A stretch of 64,000 nucleotides of DNA from Methylophaga sp. (lineage in GTDB: Bacteria > Pseudomonadota > Gammaproteobacteria > Nitrosococcales > Methylophagaceae). The stretch is from positions 124,001 to 188,000 of the forward strand of contig PAJP01000001.1 of NCBI GenBank assembly GCA_002706095.1. Direction: 5' to 3'. Position 1 is the stretch's first letter; every line of letters begins with the position of its first letter. The notes under the pieces were generated by a model. That model made no database searches. It had not been told where the DNA came from and was given only the letters and a program-made list of their open reading frames with translations. This document shows, one piece after another, positions 48,764 to 58,271 of the stretch. The position numbers and the translations under genes are program-made.

Positions 48764-49580
48764 ATTAGCAATGCGTCAACACAATTACTTGAGTGAACCA
48801 TTTTCTGCGTCCAAACTCAACAAATCTGCTTTAGTGGAAGTGGCGGTGTTTCATTTAGCCATAGCCGCTTTATTGCTTCACTCATGGACGCCTGCAGTCC
48901 AGATGGCGCCAGCGGTAAAAACAGTCAATATTCAAATGTTTGAACTGCCGAAACAGAAAAAGGTCATTGAAGAAAAAGTGATTGAAAAGACGCCACCGCC
49001 CATCGAGCCTGAGCCTGTTATTAAGCCAGAGCCCCCCGTTAAAAAGGCGGTGGTAGAAAATGATCTTGCATTCAAACGTGTTGAAAAACCGGTAAAGAAA
49101 GTTATGCCGAAAAAGCCAGTGCAAAAGAAGGTTGAGAAGGTCATAAAACCCGTTGAGAAAAAGCCTGAGAAACCGGTGAGTAAACCGCTGACTCAAGAAA
49201 AGCCAATAAAACCTCCGACGAACAAACCCGTGGTCGCCACCAATACAAGTACGAATTCACCTCAAAAAACACAAATAAGTACGAATAAGGTAGAAACTGA
49301 CACATTTTCTGTAGAACACTATAAACCGATAGAAAAACAGACACCCGATTATCCAAGAGGCGCTTTACGAAAAGGGTTGGAAGGTGATTGCACGGTTCGT
49401 TATACCGTTAACACTCAAGGACAGGTTGAATCGCCTGAGGTGATGAATGATTGCCATCCCTTATTCAAACGGCCATCATTAGCCGCCGCTAAGACTTTTC
49501 GTTATACGCCACGCATGGTCAATGGCAAAGCCGTAAAAGTGCCCGATGTCCGTAATACTTTTGAATACCGTATTCACTAA
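48756..49580 (+). CDS. tonB: TonB energy-transducing protein
   Basis: The 274-residue protein has an N-terminal helix (VEVAVFHLAIAALLLHSW), then a Pro/Lys/Glu-rich periplasm-spanning linker (PPIEPEPVIKPEPPVKKAV and further KP repeats, about 75-165). The C-terminal TonB domain is QTPDYPRGALRKGLEGDCTV with RYTPRMVNGKAVKVPD, ending NTFEYRIH. Two Cys in the domain (GDCTV, NDCHP) may form a disulfide. It contacts the TonB box of the receptor at 43142 and energises uptake. It overlaps exbD by eight bases. Confidence 0.94.
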   Translation: MPELAMRQHNYLSEPFSASKLNKSALVEVAVFHLAIAALLLHSWTPAVQMAPAVKTVNIQMFELPKQKKVIEEKVIEKTPPPIEPEPVIKPEPPVKKAVVENDLAFKRVEKPVKKVMPKKPVQKKVEKVIKPVEKKPEKPVSKPLTQEKPIKPPTNKPVVATNTSTNSPQKTQISTNKVETDTFSVEHYKPIEKQTPDYPRGALRKGLEGDCTVRYTVNTQGQVESPEVMNDCHPLFKRPSLAAAKTFRYTPRMVNGKAVKVPDVRNTFEYRIH

Positions 49581-49596
49581 TGGAAGATAAACGCAT

Positions 49597-51573
49597 ATGA
49601 CACACCCAACATCATCTGATTTTCATCAACGTCTGGCGTCATACGATGATGAGGTTATTAATCACTCTGAAGAGAAAAGCCTGAATTCAATCGCGATGTC
49701 ACGACGTGATGTATTAAGAGGCAGTTTAAATGCGGCTGCTTTAGGTTTTCTAGGGCTGAACCTTTCCAGTCGTTTGGCCTTCGCTGGCGATCATGCTCAC
49801 CCTCCCGTGCCTTATATTGGTTTTCAAGCCATTCAGCCACGCACCGATGCCTTATTCGATCAGGTTGTAGTATCAGAGGGTTATCAGGCCAAGGCTTTCT
49901 TTTCTTGGGGTGATCCTGTTGAAACAGGCGCAACAAAATGGAAAGCCGATGCCAGTAATACCTGGCAGGAACAGCTAAAGCAGGCGGGTGACAATCACGA
50001 TGGCATGCATTTCTTTGCCTTCCCCAACGATAATAATCGTGGCTTGATGGTCATCAACCATGAATACATTAACCCAACACTTCACCAAAACGGACTGAGC
50101 TATGATGTCCAAGACAAACGCTTGCTTGATGATGTTAAAAAAGAACAAGCGGCGCATGGCGTCAGTGTTATCGAAGTCAAAAAAGATAGTCTCGGTGAAT
50201 GGCAACGCGTCTACCCTTCCCTATATAACCGTCGTATATCAACATTAACGCCAATGAAGGTCAGCGGCCCTTTAGCGGGTCATGCCTTATTTAAAACGGC
50301 TTCTGATCCAAGTGCGATGGAAATTATTGGCACTTTAAATAATTGTTCGAATGGTTTCACGCCTTGGGGTACTTATTTGGCATGTGAAGAAAACTGGCAT
50401 AACTATTTTGTAAATCATGACAAAAAGGATTATCAGTCACGTGTTTCACATAAACGTTATGGCATCTCGACAGGTAAAGAAGATAACTATTATGGCTGGA
50501 GCACGATTGATGCGCGATTCGACGCTACGCCAAATGACGCTTTACCCCATCAAGGCTATGTGAATGAACCTAATCGTTTTGGCTGGGTGGTGGAAATTGA
50601 TCCCTTTGATCCACAGAGTAAACCTGTAAAACGCACGGCATTTGGACGTTTCTGTCGCGAATGTGTCGCACCAGCTATGGCTGACAATGGCCAACTGGCC
50701 TTCTATTCTGGCGATGATACTCGTGGTGAATATGTGTATAAATTTGTGCCTTCACAACGTTTTGATAAAGCGGATATGCACAAGAATCGCGACCTACTGG
50801 ATGAAGGCACACTCTATGTTGGTCGGTTTAATGACGATGGCACAGGACGTTGGTTACCATTAATTCATGGCAATGAAGGATTAACCGCTGAAAATGGCTT
50901 CCTCAGTCAGGCCGAAGTGCTGGTTAATGCCCGTGCAGCAGCTGATATATTAGGTGCAACGCCAATGGACAGACCTGAGTGGGCAACAGTGAACCCACAC
51001 AATCTGGATGTTTATATCTCCTTAACCAATAACTATAAACGAGGTAAAGCATTTGAGATCAATGCGGCTAACCCTCGTCCCGATAACCGTCATGGCCAAA
51101 TTATTAAAATCATGGAAGATCAAGCTGATCCGGCAGCAACCGCATTTAACTGGTCATTATTTGTATTGGCTGGTGAAAAACCGGGCTCTACAGACGCCAA
51201 TGGCAACAAGATACCCGATCATTTAGTCGGTAATATTCAAGGGGATATTTTTTCATCGCCTGATGGCTTAGGTTTTGATCGTGATGGACGTTTATGGATT
51301 ATGACGGACTACGATGATGACGATCCGGTGATGGCTAATATGGGCTGTAACCAAGTCTTATGTGCTAATCCACAAACACAAGAAATCAAACGCTTTTTGG
51401 TTGGCCCGAGAGGCTGTGAATTGACCGGGATTACCTGGAGCCCTGATTACAAAGCCATGTGGGTGAATATTCAACATCCGGGCATAAGCTATCCTGCTTC
51501 TGATGGACAAACACGCCCACGCTCAACAACTGTGCTAATCACTAAAAACGATGGCGGTGTAATTGGTACATAG
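49597..51573 (+). CDS. phoX: PhoX-type alkaline phosphatase (DUF839, Tat-exported)
   Basis: The 658-residue protein has a Tat signal (SRRDVLRGSLNAAALGFLGL). PhoX-like motifs include GLMVINHEYINP, NNCSNGFTPWGTYLACEENW, FGRFCRECVAPAMADNGQ, YSGDDTRGEYVYKFV, PRGCELTGITWSPD and a C-terminal RPRSTTVLITKNDGG. PhoX is a calcium/iron-dependent phosphomonoesterase used under phosphate starvation. It follows tonB by 16 bases and probably belongs to the Pho-box operon. A decayed copy of its 3' end lies at 52791-52893. Confidence 0.94.
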   Translation: MTHPTSSDFHQRLASYDDEVINHSEEKSLNSIAMSRRDVLRGSLNAAALGFLGLNLSSRLAFAGDHAHPPVPYIGFQAIQPRTDALFDQVVVSEGYQAKAFFSWGDPVETGATKWKADASNTWQEQLKQAGDNHDGMHFFAFPNDNNRGLMVINHEYINPTLHQNGLSYDVQDKRLLDDVKKEQAAHGVSVIEVKKDSLGEWQRVYPSLYNRRISTLTPMKVSGPLAGHALFKTASDPSAMEIIGTLNNCSNGFTPWGTYLACEENWHNYFVNHDKKDYQSRVSHKRYGISTGKEDNYYGWSTIDARFDATPNDALPHQGYVNEPNRFGWVVEIDPFDPQSKPVKRTAFGRFCRECVAPAMADNGQLAFYSGDDTRGEYVYKFVPSQRFDKADMHKNRDLLDEGTLYVGRFNDDGTGRWLPLIHGNEGLTAENGFLSQAEVLVNARAAADILGATPMDRPEWATVNPHNLDVYISLTNNYKRGKAFEINAANPRPDNRHGQIIKIMEDQADPAATAFNWSLFVLAGEKPGSTDANGNKIPDHLVGNIQGDIFSSPDGLGFDRDGRLWIMTDYDDDDPVMANMGCNQVLCANPQTQEIKRFLVGPRGCELTGITWSPDYKAMWVNIQHPGISYPASDGQTRPRSTTVLITKNDGGVIGT

Positions 51574-51597
51574 CGACTGAATAAAAAGATACTTTTA

Positions 51598-51627
51598 GCA
51601 TGATAGGTTTTGAATAGCCTATCATGC
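51598..51627. terminator. Hairpin after phoX
   Basis: A perfect 10-bp stem, GCATGATAGG with CCTATCATGC, has a 10-base loop but no adjacent T run. It lies between convergent phoX and the ppk2 pseudogene; it may be a stabilising or Rho-assisted 3' end. Confidence 0.55.
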
Positions 51628-51683
51628 CTACTCTCTGTCTTAGCCGCTCCTTTAGTGTCATTTGTTAAAAACAGCTAATGGCC

Positions 51684-52558
51684 TTATTTCTCTTTTAACA
51701 ATTGTTTTTTACAGGCTTGTAACTCAGCGCGGTGTTCATTACTGACTTGCGGATATTCCATTTTTAATGATTCAAACGTATCAAGAATGATTTGCGAGGT
51801 AATTAACCGTGCATTTTTTTATCGTCTGCCGGAATCACATACCAAGGCGCTTTCTCACTACTGGTCTCAGTTAAACATTTTTCATAAGCCGTCATATACT
51901 CATCCCAATAGCCTCGTTCATTCATATCGGCTGAGGTGAACTTCCAATTTTTTTCTGGCTTGTCGATCCGTGCAATAAAACGCTTACGCTGTTCTTCTTT
52001 AGACAAGTGCAAGAAAAACTTAATTACCCGCGTGCCGTTTTGGAATAAATGATTTTCCAAATCATTAATGGAGTTGTAGCGCTGTTGCCATATCGCCTCA
52101 TCTTTCAGCAATTTATCGGGCAGGTTTTGACTATGCAGGATCTCAGGATGGACGCGAACCACTAATACCTCTTCATAATAGGAACGGTTAAATATGCCGA
52201 TACGGCCACGTTCAGGTAAACATTGGTTAGTGCGCCATAAAAAATCATGTTGCAGCTCTGAATAGCTGGGATGCTTAAAGCTGAAAACCTGGCAGCCCTG
52301 GGGATTAATACCTGACATAATATGACGAATGGTGCCATCTTTACCGGCTGAGTCCATCGCTTGAAAGATGATTAATACGGAATAACGGTTGGAGGCATAA
52401 AGTCGCCGTTGTAATTCACTTAACTGCGTCACATGTGATTTTAATTGTTTTTTGTAGTCTTTTTTAGAGTCATAGATAGCATTAATGTCAGTAGGCCATT
52501 TTTTCAAGTTCACCTTATCTCCCGCATGAACTCGAAATGTGTCGCTCTCTATTTTCAT
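51684..52558 (-). pseudogene. ppk2: Polyphosphate kinase 2 (PPK2 class III-like) with C-terminal frameshift
   Basis: From the ATG at 52558 the frame encodes 251 residues: Walker [46 protein letters not shown]-type text (here [11 protein letters not shown]), and PADDKK, then it stops at 51803. PPK2 proteins normally continue with [16 protein letters not shown]; that sequence, plus KMEYPQVSNEHRAELQ, is encoded directly downstream in another frame, ending at 51684. A single A missing in the A7 run at 51814-51820 explains the break (eight A would give DDKKNARL). The enzyme transfers phosphate between polyphosphate and nucleotides. The defect may be real, a slippage site or an assembly error. Confidence 0.85.
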
Positions 52559-52790
52559 TGTCGCTATCCCCCGATTAGAACCCTTGTTATTTGTTAGCCT
52601 CGGTATCGTAAAACTTCCTGACTTTGAATAATATCAGACAACGCTGTATCAAAATTCTCTAATCTCGACTACTGATAACGTTTGTGTAAAACGTGCTCCC
52701 TCTGATAATTGATGTGATCTAATAACATGACCATATCGTCCAGAACACTAACTTGTCTCATATCGCGATAGCGCTCTTCACCCTAACAAT

Positions 52791-52893
52791 ATATTCACCA
52801 TCCAAGCTTAAGTTACCCGGCTTCTAATGGCAAAACATGCTCATGTGCCTCCACGGGTTCTGATTACTAAAAATGATGGCGTGATATAGGTAC
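52791..52893 (+). pseudogene. Decayed copy of the phoX 3' end
   Basis: This stretch aligns by eye along its whole length with 51469-51573 at the end of phoX. Both share ATTCA-CATCC, TAAG, GCTTCT-ATGG, AAACA-GC-CA, and CTAAAAA-GATGGC, with substitutions and two single-base indels. It encodes VLITKNDGVI followed by a stop, against VLITKNDGGVIGT in phoX. No intact upstream part remains. It is a remnant of a duplicated phoX-like gene lying 1.2 kb from the functional copy, across ppk2. Confidence 0.75.
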
Positions 52894-53070
52894 TTAACAA
52901 GACATAGATGGAACGTTCTGACTGAGGTTAAGTCACTATTGATATACGAGAAAAATCATCATAATCGTGTAGTAATACACATAAAGGCTGTAGAATCAGG
53001 CAAGTCTCATATTGTTTTTCCTCCTATAGTATTCTCACCTTTAAATCTTTTACTCACGGGAGTTTCATCT

Positions 53071-54117
53071 ATGAAAACTGTTGGTTATGCCGCTCATTCT
53101 TCAGATACCCCTCTTGCTCCATTCCATTTTGAACGAAGAGAATTGCGTGATAATGATGTAGCAATGGAAATTCTTTATTGTGGCGTTTGTCACTCTGACT
53201 TGCACGTCGCCAGAAATGATTGGGGTGGCTCTTCTTATCCCGTTGTGCCCGGTCATGAAATAGTCGGTCGTGTTACTGCAATTGGTAAAAATGTCACTAA
53301 ATATAATATCGGTGACAACGTGGCTGTCGGCTGTATGGTGGATAGTTGCCTGGAATGCGATGAATGTCATAATGATCATGAGCAGTATTGCCGTAATACG
53401 TTCACACTGACCTATGGCTCACCTGATCGCATTAGCAACGAAATGACGCAAGGTGGTTACGCCAAACACATCGTTGTACGAGAAGAGTTTGTATTACGAC
53501 TGCCTGAAAATCTGGATTTGGCTAAAGCAGCGCCTCTATTATGTGCCGGAATTACCACCTATTCTCCTCTAAGAGAATGGAATGTCGGTCCAGGCAGTCG
53601 TGTTGGCGTAGTTGGCATGGGTGGTTTGGGTCATATGGCCATTAAAATTGCCGTAGGTTTAGGGGCAGATGTGACGGTGATTAGTACGTCACCTAAAAAG
53701 GAAGTCGATGCCAGAGAACTAGGTGCGCATAACTTTCTGGTATCAAAAGATGAAGACGCCATGGCTGCCGCAGCTTCTGGTTTTGATGTCATTATTGATA
53801 CTGTTCCCGTCAGCCATGATCTGAATCCATACATTCCTTTATTAGATAATGACGCGACACTGGTTATGGTCGGTCAGATTGGGCCAATTGAAGGACCCAA
53901 TACAGCACCCATGGTTTTCGGCCGTCGTCGTATTGCCGGCTCATTAATTGGTGGTATTAAAGAAACACAGGAAATGCTGGATTTCTGTGGTCGAATGAAT
54001 ATTTTGCCAGAATGTGAAATGATCAAAATGGATGAAATTAATACAGCATTTGATCGCATGGAACGTTCTGACGTGAGATACCGCTTTGTCATAGATATGG
54101 CATCATTAGACGCTTAG
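53071..54117 (+). CDS. Zinc-dependent alcohol dehydrogenase (YahK/cinnamyl-ADH type)
   Basis: The ATG at 53071 (MKTVGYAAH) has GGGAG upstream; a 44-residue longer reading frame starts before it but lacks support. The 348-residue protein has catalytic zinc ligands in CGVCHSDLHVA and GHEIVGRV, structural zinc cysteines in CLECDECHNDHEQYC, and the NAD(P) Rossmann motif VGVVGMGGLGHMAIKIA. This is the medium-chain ADH subfamily that reduces aldehydes, NADPH-preferring in YahK. An AraC regulator lies downstream on the same strand and may control it, as YqhC does for YqhD (inference). Confidence 0.92.
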   Translation: MKTVGYAAHSSDTPLAPFHFERRELRDNDVAMEILYCGVCHSDLHVARNDWGGSSYPVVPGHEIVGRVTAIGKNVTKYNIGDNVAVGCMVDSCLECDECHNDHEQYCRNTFTLTYGSPDRISNEMTQGGYAKHIVVREEFVLRLPENLDLAKAAPLLCAGITTYSPLREWNVGPGSRVGVVGMGGLGHMAIKIAVGLGADVTVISTSPKKEVDARELGAHNFLVSKDEDAMAAAASGFDVIIDTVPVSHDLNPYIPLLDNDATLVMVGQIGPIEGPNTAPMVFGRRRIAGSLIGGIKETQEMLDFCGRMNILPECEMIKMDEINTAFDRMERSDVRYRFVIDMASLDA

Positions 54118-54124
54118 CTTATTC

Positions 54125-54150
54125 GGGCAGTCAGTTTCTGGCTGCCCTTT
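54125..54150 (+). terminator. Hairpin after the ADH gene
   Basis: GGGCAGTCAG pairs with CTGGCTGCCC (one wobble) around TTT, followed by TTTCC. It lies 20 bases before the AraC gene, so it may only partly terminate. Confidence 0.55.
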
Positions 54151-54169
54151 CCATTTTCTGACAACTCAT

Positions 54170-55054
54170 ATGAATACAAAACCTTTGGCTGAACTGCTAA
54201 GTCGCTATGCTCCAAACGATGGCCTGTTTGATTTGCCGATTACAGGTGTCCGTGTTTTTCGCGTATCACACATTGACGAGGTCGCTGTACGGGGTAATAG
54301 CCAGCCCGGTATTTGCATTATTGCTCAAGGTGCAAAACGTGCCATTATCGGAAGTGATGTATATGAGTATGACGATTCCAGAATGGCTGTTTACTCAACT
54401 GAAGTGCCGGTCTCTTCGAGGATTATTCAGGCCAGTAAGGATGAACCTTATTTGTGTCTTATCATCGATATTGATCAGCAAAAACTGGCTGAAACGGCAT
54501 TAAAAGTTTTTCCGTACGGTCTACCAAAAACGACTGCAAGCAAACCTATTTTTATTGGACAAGCTTGTCCTTACATTGTTGAAGCCGTAACGCGATTGAT
54601 TGGCTTATCGGCACAAAATGAGCAATCAGCTCTACTAGTGCCTTTAGTCATGGAAGAAATTTATATTCGTTTGTTACAAAGCCATATCGGCAAACTGGTG
54701 GTACAGATTGCAACTACAGATTCCCATTTACAAAAAGTCTCTGCAGCGATTTCCTGGCTACGTGAGCATTTTTCTGAACCAATGAAAGTTGATGAGCTGG
54801 CTGAACGGGTCAATATGAGCATTTCATCGTTTCATCATCACTTTAAAGCGATAACGTCAATGAGTCCGTTGCAGTTTCAAAAAGAGTTACGTCTTTATGA
54901 AGCGAAACATCTAATGCTGTCGAAAATGATGGATGTGAGTACGGCGTGTATGCATGTAGGCTATTCCAGTGTGTCACAATTTAGCCGGGAATACAGTCGT
55001 TTTTTTGGCCAACCACCGAGTAAAGATATTCAGCTCCAATCAATGGTCGTCTAA
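54170..55054 (+). CDS. AraC-family regulator (AraC_N domain, YqhC-like)
   Basis: The 294-residue protein has an N-terminal AraC_N-type cupin region (PGICIIAQGAKRAIIGSDVY, MAVYSTEVPVSSRI) and a C-terminal pair of helix-turn-helix motifs (DELAERVNMSISSFHHHFKAI, TACMHVGYSSVSQFSREYSRFFG). Members of this group often control an adjacent aldehyde reductase, and here the ADH gene is directly upstream. It is probably activated by an aldehyde or related signal (inference). Confidence 0.92.
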   Translation: MNTKPLAELLSRYAPNDGLFDLPITGVRVFRVSHIDEVAVRGNSQPGICIIAQGAKRAIIGSDVYEYDDSRMAVYSTEVPVSSRIIQASKDEPYLCLIIDIDQQKLAETALKVFPYGLPKTTASKPIFIGQACPYIVEAVTRLIGLSAQNEQSALLVPLVMEEIYIRLLQSHIGKLVVQIATTDSHLQKVSAAISWLREHFSEPMKVDELAERVNMSISSFHHHFKAITSMSPLQFQKELRLYEAKHLMLSKMMDVSTACMHVGYSSVSQFSREYSRFFGQPPSKDIQLQSMVV

Positions 55055-55110
55055 AGCTTAAAGTGTTGTTAGCTTAGTTTATGAATGAGTTTGTGGGTAA
55101 GCATAAAGGG

Positions 55111-55182
55111 TGGAAAACACTCACAAGTGGACGACATAAATTTATAGTAAAAAATTGAATGTACTTTTGTGAGTGCTTTCCA
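55111..55182. repeat. 16-bp imperfect inverted repeat in the araC-MFS gap
   Basis: TGGAAAACACTCACAA (55111-55126) is matched in reverse by TTGTGAGTGCTTTCCA (55167-55182) with one mismatch and a 40-base spacer. It lies between the convergent araC and MFS genes. It could be a terminator, a regulator site or a mobile-element relic. The whole 248-base gap otherwise holds nothing recognised. Confidence 0.6.
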
Positions 55183-55302
55183 TCGCGAAAGCCTGAGTGT
55201 AGTTAAAGTTTGCCAAAGTCACAATATGTGTTTGTTATTAATATGAATTAACACACATAATCAGAGCCGGAAAATCAGGCTTGCTTGGATACTTCTGACG
55301 GA

Positions 55303-56490
55303 CTAAACACGAGTAAACTTGTCTTGTTTTACCGCTATCAGGAATCCCATGCCAACCAGCATGACTAACCCCGTTGCCCACAATGCCACGTGATAATTAC
55401 CATAGTAACTGGCCAGATATCCGGCTGCTGCTGGTGCAATGATCTGTGCTGTACCATAACAAATAGTGAGTCGGGCCATAGCTTTAGCCGGATTCAATGG
55501 GAATTTATGACCAATAAAGGTCAGCATCAGACTCACAATGCCAGTGAATGTACCGCCAAATATGGCCGCTGCTATCAAGTTAGTGATCAGCGAATCAGAC
55601 AATACCGGCATAATGACTGCGACCATCTGTAAGGCATAGGTCAGCAATAAAGTGTTTAACTCTCCAAACTTATTCGCCACTTTATCCCACAAGAAACAGG
55701 CTGGTGCTGCAGCAAGACCAAGAATCACCCATATCCAGTCACCCTTACCGCTCAGTTGTGGCATTTCTTCAAGTATCGCGACAATAAACGTGGCACTCAC
55801 AACGTACCCTACTCCGGCACAGGCATAAGCCAGGATCAGCTTTATCATCCAGCTACGGGGAGGCTCTATAAGTGGTTGGCTCGTTTTATGTTGCGTCAGC
55901 TGTGGCTGAGGTATCCAGAACCAGGCAGGAATAAAAAAGAGAATGCCAAACAGCCCCATCACAATCCATTGGCTATCCCATGGCAAAAAATGATTCATTA
56001 ACACCACTGCTGAACCGGGTATGGCAATGCCAAGACCCAATCCCATAAAATGCAGACCTAGTTCTGGCTTAAATCGATGATGTTTAAGCCAACTGAGCAC
56101 AAATCCCGATGACAATATGACGCCAGCCGTACCACTGATACCCGCAATAAATCGTAATATCACCCAGCCATACAATTCTGTTGTCATCCCCATGGCTATG
56201 GTGGATAACACCGCAATCACCAAACACCACTGATAAAAACGATACTTAAACGCAAGGTTATTCGTGAACGAGACTAATACCACACCCAACAAGTAACCAA
56301 TATAGTTAAATGTCGCCAGCCAGCCACTATTCACCAGCGATAAGTCTGTCTGATTGAGCATTAAAGGAAGAAACGGTGTATATGAAAATCGTGCTATGCC
56401 CACCGCTAGAATGACTGCACAGATACCCGCTGTAATCACTTTTATTCGTTGAAACTGTAATTCTATCGATAACTGTGTCATGTATATCAT
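55303..56490 (-). CDS. MFS transporter, YbfB/YjiJ family
   Basis: The 395-residue protein has 12 predicted transmembrane helices. The N-terminal signature GIARFSYTPFLPLML and GWLATFNYIGYLLGVVL is typical of the YbfB/YjiJ family of major facilitator exporters, as is FIAGISGTAGVILSSGFVLSWL. Substrate unknown. An alternative start lies at 56481 (MTQLS). Monocistronic on this evidence; it lies beyond the ccoQ gene on the same strand with about 160 bases between. Confidence 0.9.
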   Translation of the reverse strand: MIYMTQLSIELQFQRIKVITAGICAVILAVGIARFSYTPFLPLMLNQTDLSLVNSGWLATFNYIGYLLGVVLVSFTNNLAFKYRFYQWCLVIAVLSTIAMGMTTELYGWVILRFIAGISGTAGVILSSGFVLSWLKHHRFKPELGLHFMGLGLGIAIPGSAVVLMNHFLPWDSQWIVMGLFGILFFIPAWFWIPQPQLTQHKTSQPLIEPPRSWMIKLILAYACAGVGYVVSATFIVAILEEMPQLSGKGDWIWVILGLAAAPACFLWDKVANKFGELNTLLLTYALQMVAVIMPVLSDSLITNLIAAAIFGGTFTGIVSLMLTFIGHKFPLNPAKAMARLTICYGTAQIIAPAAAGYLASYYGNYHVALWATGLVMLVGMGFLIAVKQDKFTRV

Positions 56491-56649
56491 CAGAGTGAAT
56501 GAATAGCGTGCATAGTATCACTTGATAAAGTGGTGATGACTTATTAAAAAGAATAGATACTTTGGAAAAAGTGTTATTCACTAAATCATATCAACCCGAC
56601 CAATTTATTTATGTCAACTAATCGACTAGATTTGTGGGGCTGGGCTGTT

Positions 56650-56838
56650 CTAGCTATCTTCGTGCATTAAGTGATCCCGGTGAGATTCGAGTGATTCTTT
56701 ATATCTGGGATGGAAAACACGGTAATACGTTATACCTATCGCCACACTTAATAGAACACTCATGATCGTTGCCAGCCAATCTGAAGCGGTCATTGCAGCG
56801 ATATCCATCGCAAAAAACTCACTGATAAACCATTTCAT
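56650..56838 (-). CDS. ccoQ: CcoQ-like small cbb3 oxidase-associated protein
   Basis: The 62-residue protein has one transmembrane helix (WLATIMSVLLSVAIGITYYRVFHP) followed by a charged cytoplasmic tail, like CcoQ. It lies 17 bases after ccoN with AAGGAG at the start, so it is in the same operon. CcoQ helps assemble or stabilise the cbb3 oxidase. The family call rests on size, topology and context more than on strong motifs. Confidence 0.75.
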   Translation of the reverse strand: MKWFISEFFAMDIAAMTASDWLATIMSVLLSVAIGITYYRVFHPRYKESLESHRDHLMHEDS

Positions 56839-56855
56839 TTCGTACTCCTTTTAGC

Positions 56856-58271
56856 TTATGACATTGCCGATTGAGTAACAGCGTTGTTTTGCTTCACCGC
56901 TTGTCGAATAGTAACGGTCACATTGAACAGCATTACAACAGCGCCAAGGAAAAAGACCAAACCACCCACAGCACGCATGGCATAATAAGGATGCATCTGT
57001 GCGACTGATTCCACAAAGGTATACGCTAAATTGCCGTAATCATCATAAGCACGCCACATCAAACCTTGCATAATGCCTGACACCCACATGGCCGTGATGT
57101 AGATAACGGTACCGATGGTCGCCATCCAGAAATGGGTGTTTACCAGTTTGGTTGAATACAAAGGCACACGCCAAAGTTTTTCGACCATATGATAGATAGC
57201 ACCGATAGATACCATGGCAACCCAACCCAGTGCTCCCGCATGAACGTGCCCAATCGTCCAGTCTGTATAGTGAGATAAGGCATTAACCGTTTTAGATGAC
57301 ATAACCGGGCCTTCAAATGTCGACATTGCATAAAAAGCCAATGACACAATCAGGAACCGTAAAATATAGTCTGTACGCAGTTTGTCCCAGGCACCACTTA
57401 AGGTAAACATGCCGTTAATCGCCCCACCCCATGAAGGAATAATCATGGCAAGGGAAATAGCCGCACCGAGTGATCCAGTCCAGTCAGGTAACGCGGTGTA
57501 TTGAAGATGGTGAGCCCCTAACCAGACGTAACCAAACACCAACGCCCAGAAATGAATAACCGACAAACGATAAGAATAAATCGGACGATTAGCCTGTTTA
57601 GGTACAAAGTAATACATGATGGCAAGAAAGCCTGCTGTCAGGAAAAAGCCAACGGCATTGTGACCCCACCACCATTGAATCATCGCATCCTGAACACCCG
57701 CAAAAATAGAATAGGATTTCCATAGTTCCACTGGAATAGACAGACTATTGACGACATGTAAATAAATAATCGCAATCATCATCGCCAGATAAAACCAGTT
57801 AGCCACATAGATGTGTGAGATACGACGGATGGCGATAGTCATAATAAAGTTAAAAGTAAAAGCCAACCAGACAACTGTGATTAATACGTCCAGAGGCCAC
57901 TCCATCTCAGCATATTCTTTTGACTGGGTATAACCCAATGGCAGCGTGATAAACATGCCGATAATGACAACATTCCAGCCCCAGAAAGTGAACCAGGCCA
58001 GTTTATTACTCCATAAAGCGACACTGCAGGTGCGTTGAACAACATAATAGGCTGTCGCCATTAATGTGCTGCCGGCAAAGGCAAAAATCACCGTATTAGT
58101 ATGAACAGGCCGCAGCCGTCCAAAACTCAGGTAAGGATTATCAAAATTCAAAACAGGCCAGGCAAGCTCAGAGGCGATCCATACACCTACACCAGTGCCG
58201 ATCACCAGATAAATGCACGCCATGATCGTAAAAAACTTCACAATATTGTAATTATAGGGTTTTGTTTCCAT
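56856..58271 (-). CDS. ccoN: Orphan cbb3-type cytochrome c oxidase subunit I (CcoN)
   Basis: The 471-residue protein has about 12 transmembrane helices with heme and copper ligands in [66 protein letters not shown] and YHMVEKL. It is the catalytic heme-copper subunit that reduces oxygen. No ccoO or ccoP lies beside it, so it must share the small subunits of another cbb3 locus or act as a specialised isoform. Gene order matches the P. aeruginosa ccoN4 cluster (known to affect cyanide and nitrite tolerance). Confidence 0.92.

Follow-up and report, generated by a model that had tools for sequence, protein, structure and literature searches.

A Displaced phoX 3' End Probably Marks the Seam of a Composite phoX-ppk2-adh Locus in Methylophaga

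Features of the Locus

The DNA analyzed here, referred to as the window, comprises 64,000 nucleotides from the genome of a marine methylotroph of the genus Methylophaga (G000; contig PAJP01000001.1, positions 124,001 to 188,000) and carries phoX, encoding an alkaline phosphatase, followed by ppk2 for polyphosphate kinase 2 on the opposite strand and by the alcohol dehydrogenase gene adh (Table 1). Approximately 1.2 kb past the phoX stop codon, between ppk2 and adh, lies a short relic of the phoX 3' end that an initial annotation, made from the sequence alone, had attributed to a lost second phosphatase gene or to a duplication-deletion event. When window positions 52559-53070 were aligned locally with phoX plus 60 bases, the phoX end (51467-51572) matched 52791-52896 with a score of 65, compared with a mean of 22.5 (standard deviation 2.4) and a maximum of 34 for dinucleotide shuffles; none of 1000 shuffles reached the observed score, and the same was true under two further scoring schemes. 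The similarity over some 100 bases, claimed in the initial annotation together with its distance of 1.2 kb from the intact gene, is thus real and far above the level of shuffled sequence, the check that had been proposed there, and its coordinates were right to within 3 bases.

The reading frame of the relic is broken. It reads VLITKNDGVI, the decayed version of VLITKNDGGVI that had been pointed out initially, and then meets a stop codon. The same relic stands in the same place in Methylophaga sulfidovorans DSM 11578 (G020), where tblastn recovers phoX residues 624-641 and 641-658 in two different frames. Over the 104-106 bases compared, the relics of G000 and G020 are 76.0% identical, as opposed to 89.6% for the same part of the intact phoX genes, while identity of the G000 relic amounts to 74.3% with the intact phoX of its own genome and 79.0% with phoX of Methylophaga aminisulfidivorans MP (G021). 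Significantly similar to phoX yet without an intact frame, the element is a non-coding pseudogene fragment that drifts without constraint. The G000 genome contains a single phoX match. A second phoX with approximately 52-54% identity, found elsewhere in genomes G002 (L020), G007 (L019) and G009 (L021), is a separate paralogue.

The approximately 190 bases that lead from ppk2 to the relic, overlooked in the initial annotation, consist of relics as well, namely the 3' end of atpG followed by an internal piece of atpD, the genes for the gamma and beta subunits of an N-ATPase. In a collinear comparison over 130 bases the atpG relic scores 52 (shuffle maximum 32, 0 of 2000 as good) and its counterpart in G020 scores 45 (0 of 2000); in the weakest test, a stricter scheme applied to the whole of atpG, the score of 32 compares with a shuffle maximum of 31 (0 of 1000). 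The atpD relic reaches a score of 91, which none of 2000 shuffles attained, and blastn matches positions 52688-52787 to atpD of genome G001 with 73% identity (E 1.6e-11). Against the F-ATPase genes of the same genome, the atpG and atpD relics score only 22 and 28, respectively, compared with 52 and 91 for the N-type. The two scraps are the remnant of an N-ATPase operon, of N-type and not F-type, and retain the orientation of that operon. The atpD piece, starting from codon ~190, is joined directly to phoX codon 624 at a seam without evident homology. Both scraps recur in G020, and the seams shared by the two genomes, like the homologies themselves, are observed directly.

Table 1. Genes, gene relics and other features between phoX and adh in the window.
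Feature	Position	Strand	Evidence
phoX, intact, alkaline phosphatase PhoX, 658 amino acids	49597..51573	+	Pfam PF05787, E 7e-160
Inverted repeat directly 3' of phoX	51599..51628	+	Read by eye
ppk2, polyphosphate kinase 2, frameshifted	51684..52558	-	PF03976, E 6e-66; DNA alignment with G020, G004 and G001
Relic of N-ATPase atpG (gamma) 3' end	52597..52685	-	Location behind ppk2 shared with G001; score 52
Relic of internal N-ATPase atpD (beta) piece, codons ~190-223	52686..52789	-	blastn; score 91
Relic of phoX 3' end, 106 bases, codons 624-658	52791..52896	+	Local alignment, DNA match, tblastn in G020
Relic-adh spacer, with homology to the DNA separating intact phoX from adh in G021, G022 and G009 contig C11	52897..53070	+	DNA match, alignment
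adh, zinc alcohol dehydrogenase	53071..54117	+	PF08240, PF00107; directly after phoX in G021/G022

Locus Order in Related Organisms

A search of the genus yielded phoX matches in 17 of 24 genomes. Twelve genus stretches, including one with a phoX of distant type (L053, 45%) and an N-ATPase contig that lacks phoX (L051), were compared and the neighboring genes placed by tblastn; in addition, the best 80 of 130 phoX loci from named genomes were surveyed. The order tonB-phoX-adh-araC without ppk2 is present in G021, G022 and contig C11 of G009, and tonB-phoX-ppk2-relic-adh-araC in G000 and G020. In G004, which belongs to the same species as G000, phoX-ppk2 is followed by just the last 30 codons of araC, such that the relic is missing along with adh and the bulk of araC; this deletion of approximately 2.4 kb fuses the region upstream of ppk2 to the araC end (L042, 5879-5998). 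Neither ppk2 nor adh follows phoX in G006, G007, G009 contig C2 and G002. Contig C11 of G009 (L046, 9.8 kb) shares 99.2% identity with G021 along 6.4 kb and the F-ATPase of G009 groups with that of G006; the contig is probably mis-binned and was for this reason left out as an independent case.

Among the best 80 of the 130 named-genome loci, ppk2 occurs near phoX once, in the locus of G020, and adh four times, while atpA, atpB, atpD and atpG were not found near any phoX. The initial annotation had suggested looking for relatives with two phoX genes at this place. No case with two intact copies emerged from these 80 loci or from the 12 genus stretches; at one named-genome locus (L213), a single phoX is present in two overlapping pieces.

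With regard to the N-ATPase, a gamma subunit scoring above the cut-off is present in 4 of 57 genomes of the family and 6 of 63 genomes of the order, a set that does not include G000, G004 or G020. In G001, AtpD and AtpG score above the NCBIfam thresholds set for the beta and gamma subunits of the alternative F1F0-type (N-ATPase), and one contig of 4.6 kb carries the order phoX-ppk2-atpG-atpA-atpF. Two further full-length contigs of 4.1 kb, C98 and C99 (L051 and L094), both feature atpD, atpC, atpQ/R-like genes and atpB; apart from atpD and atpG, the gene names are those that we presume from position and the usual layout of the operon. Contigs C98 and C99 are 94.6% identical, and their shared N-ATPase front half may reflect a bin that contains a second strain or an operon that is present twice. 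A histidine kinase gene end upstream of atpD in G001 was uninformative as a pointer to the former place of the operon, having too many relatives. No ppk2 was seen beside the N-ATPase genes among the open reading frames read by eye at five other atpG loci of the order (L097-L099, L226 and L227), nor by tblastn in three longer stretches (L116-L118), and a literature search returned no paper on an N-ATPase in Methylophaga.

Two Types of phoX 3' Flank and Decay of ppk2

The two phoX ends of the window differ in what adjoins them. The 120 bases 3' of the intact gene resemble the phoX-ppk2 spacer of G001, with scores of 44 for G000 and 49 for G020 (0 of 1000 shuffles each), and do not match the phoX-adh spacer of G021, for which shuffles did as well in 21 of 1000 cases for G000 (score 23) and in 235 of 1000 for G020. 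For the 120 bases 3' of the relic, it is the comparison with G021 that gives matches, with scores of 42 (G000) and 36 (G020) and 0 of 1000 shuffles each, and the one with G001 that gives none (134 and 551 of 1000 shuffles as good for G000 and G020, respectively). Compared with each other, the two flanks of G000 score 17, a value equalled in 465 of 1000 shuffles. Relic and spacer together (52791-53070) yielded DNA matches in G022 (E 1.5e-25) as well as in G021 and G009 (E 6e-21). As the two types of flank, directly visible in the alignments, sort with different relatives, the end of the intact phoX can be assigned to the phoX-ppk2 order and the relic to the order in which adh follows phoX.

Identity between G000 and G020 amounts to 78.4% for the atpG relic, 84.5% for the atpD relic, 87.9% for the relic-adh spacer and 94.3% for ppk2. 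The latter gene is intact in G020 and G001 and differently frameshifted in G000 and G004, in both cases within single-base runs. In G000, the shift lies in a run of T residues near 51814-51820 and the open frame stops at 51803, leaving 251 amino acids as compared with a frame of 298 codons in G001. These frameshifts may indicate a pseudogene in the making or may be homopolymer sequencing errors. Divergence of ppk2 is 5.7% between G000 and G020 and 11.1% between G000 and G001, roughly proportional to the values of 11.2% and 26.0% for adh. A plasmid search with ppk2 yielded distant relatives only, the best with 68.5%. The statement of the initial annotation that the locus is unstable agrees with the deletion in G004, the two ppk2 frameshifts and the loss of the N-ATPase operon.

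Origin of the Composite Locus

Judged from the sequences, the relic is probably the displaced 3' tail of a phoX gene, situated at the seam of a composite of two locus arrangements. One of these would have been phoX-adh-araC, as in G021 and G022, and the other a phoX-ppk2-N-ATPase operon, as in G001. Recombination would have placed an intact phoX, with ppk2 and the N-ATPase operon after it, in front of a residual phoX end that began at codon 624 and was still joined to adh. Most likely, one end of the incoming DNA was anchored by phoX homology and the other end joined illegitimately, a process known as homology-facilitated illegitimate recombination. Since the right seam leads from atpD codon ~190 to phoX codon 624, the operon would have been broken on arrival, and a later internal deletion between atpG and atpD would have left ppk2 and the two ATPase scraps. 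We infer, rather than observe, that one step was enough, as well as the insertion's direction and the sequence of deletion events. ppk2 is accordingly viewed as the survivor of an N-ATPase/ppk2 block, observed here as scraps, that appears to have been deleted almost completely.

Several points weigh against this history. Sliding identity along phoX gave no recombination break. Approximately unbiased (AU) tests rejected neither the grouping of the relics with phoX of G021 (p 0.31) nor that with the intact copies (p 0.28), and the phoX-ppk2-N-ATPase arrangement is known from a single contig (4.6 kb) in the draft genome G001. Furthermore, the ppk2 divergence between G000 and G001 (11%) fits that of adh given the rates of the two genes; the ppk2 block could thus be of long standing and vertically inherited, with the adh block as the newcomer. 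Under such a reversed direction, which we regard as rather unlikely, phoX-ppk2-N-ATPase would be the old arrangement, an adh-araC block with a phoX tail would have entered on the right, and G021 and G022 would have lost the ppk2 block through recombination between the phoX ends. The proportional divergences of ppk2 and adh among G000, G020 and G001 speak in its favor, as does an F-ATPase tree that did not resolve the branching among G000, G020 and G021; G001 falls outside these three. The divergences of ppk2 and adh are equally compatible with a long-resident block and with one that came in recently. On the other hand, the outgroups G006, G007, G009 (contig C2) and G002 lack ppk2 after phoX in the stretches compared, and N-ATPase is absent above the cut-off in these genomes.

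A single-crossover (Campbell-type) integration or a long duplication could also have produced two full phoX genes, one on either side of ppk2 and the N-ATPase operon, followed by a deletion from the interior of atpD to phoX codon 624. We consider this possible, although on balance doubtful: it predicts the same present-day anatomy and accounts for the differing 3' flanks if an incoming circle had its own phoX end, but it needs an extra large deletion, and the two-phoX intermediate is missing from the best 80 of 130 named-genome loci and the 12 genus stretches. A plain tandem duplication of phoX within the lineage, after which the second gene decayed and ppk2 became inserted in the gap, would give a phoX end 1.2 kb from the intact gene and is nevertheless highly improbable. 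The two copies have unrelated 3' flanks that each resemble a different relative, N-ATPase scraps lie between them, and in percent identity the relic is no closer to the intact phoX of its own genome than to that of G021, although the tree of phoX tails did not resolve its position; neither a shared flank nor a closer relationship of the copies to each other was found, and it is on the flank comparison that this explanation was rejected. Consequently, the lost second phosphatase from a local duplication, as proposed in the initial annotation, is not supported, whereas its suggestion that the same history also placed ppk2 between the phoX ends is retained in the composite history. That a conserved functional element happens to resemble the phoX end has a negligible probability, the relic being the least conserved part between G000 and G020 (76.0% vs. 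87.9% for the following spacer), and chance similarity is ruled out by the shuffles.

Relation to Known Recombination Systems

Islands that integrate into the 3' end of a gene leave an intact gene on one side and a displaced 3' end on the other. The present locus shares this layout, with intact phoX and displaced phoX end on opposite sides, but its two ends resemble each other along all 106 bases, at approximately 75-80%, in place of an identity confined to a short core. No integrase was recognized by eye among the open reading frames listed for window positions 49000-58000, six of whose proteins were run against Pfam, and a site-specific island with integrase and identical att core is not what was found, the ends having diverged throughout.

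A closer likeness exists to the type VI secretion system clusters of Vibrio cholerae, for which incoming DNA is described as anchored by upstream homology and the old 3' part as displaced downstream, where it survives as an orphan; something akin to homology-facilitated illegitimate recombination is proposed by the authors (PMC5361080). In V. cholerae, whole immunity genes are displaced (PMC5361080), whereas the locus in Methylophaga retains a dead tail of 106 bases and the cargo would have been an ATPase operon plus ppk2. Homology-facilitated illegitimate recombination itself is documented by a laboratory experiment in Escherichia coli (PMC3240628), which the present case resembles in the homology-free seam beside the gene that supplies homology and from which it differs in being deduced from a fossil seam without parent sequences. 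The G001 genes agree with the N-ATPase operon (PMC5376962) in that atpD and atpC precede atpB and that the operon occurs in addition to a normal F-ATPase, while the window keeps scraps of atpG and atpD only.

Implications for the phoX Locus of Methylophaga

It is conceivable, though quite unlikely, that cargo is repeatedly gained and lost at the phoX 3' end, with the latter as the anchor, in that an N-ATPase/ppk2 block entered by one-sided homology and was broken on entry, and that the direct repeat of phoX ends permits clean loss, as in G021 and G022. If so, the presence of a sodium or proton ATPase and of a polyphosphate kinase would toggle at a gene for phosphate acquisition. The reading as a gene duplication is tempting and probably wrong; the composite history, by comparison, would explain why ppk2 lies beside phoX. 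Such a history would be ordinary genome evolution with an unusually legible record and no new kind of system, and it illustrates that an apparently intergenic stretch of 300 bases can record a history of gene transfer, including the identity of the incoming genes, the position of the seam and the losses.
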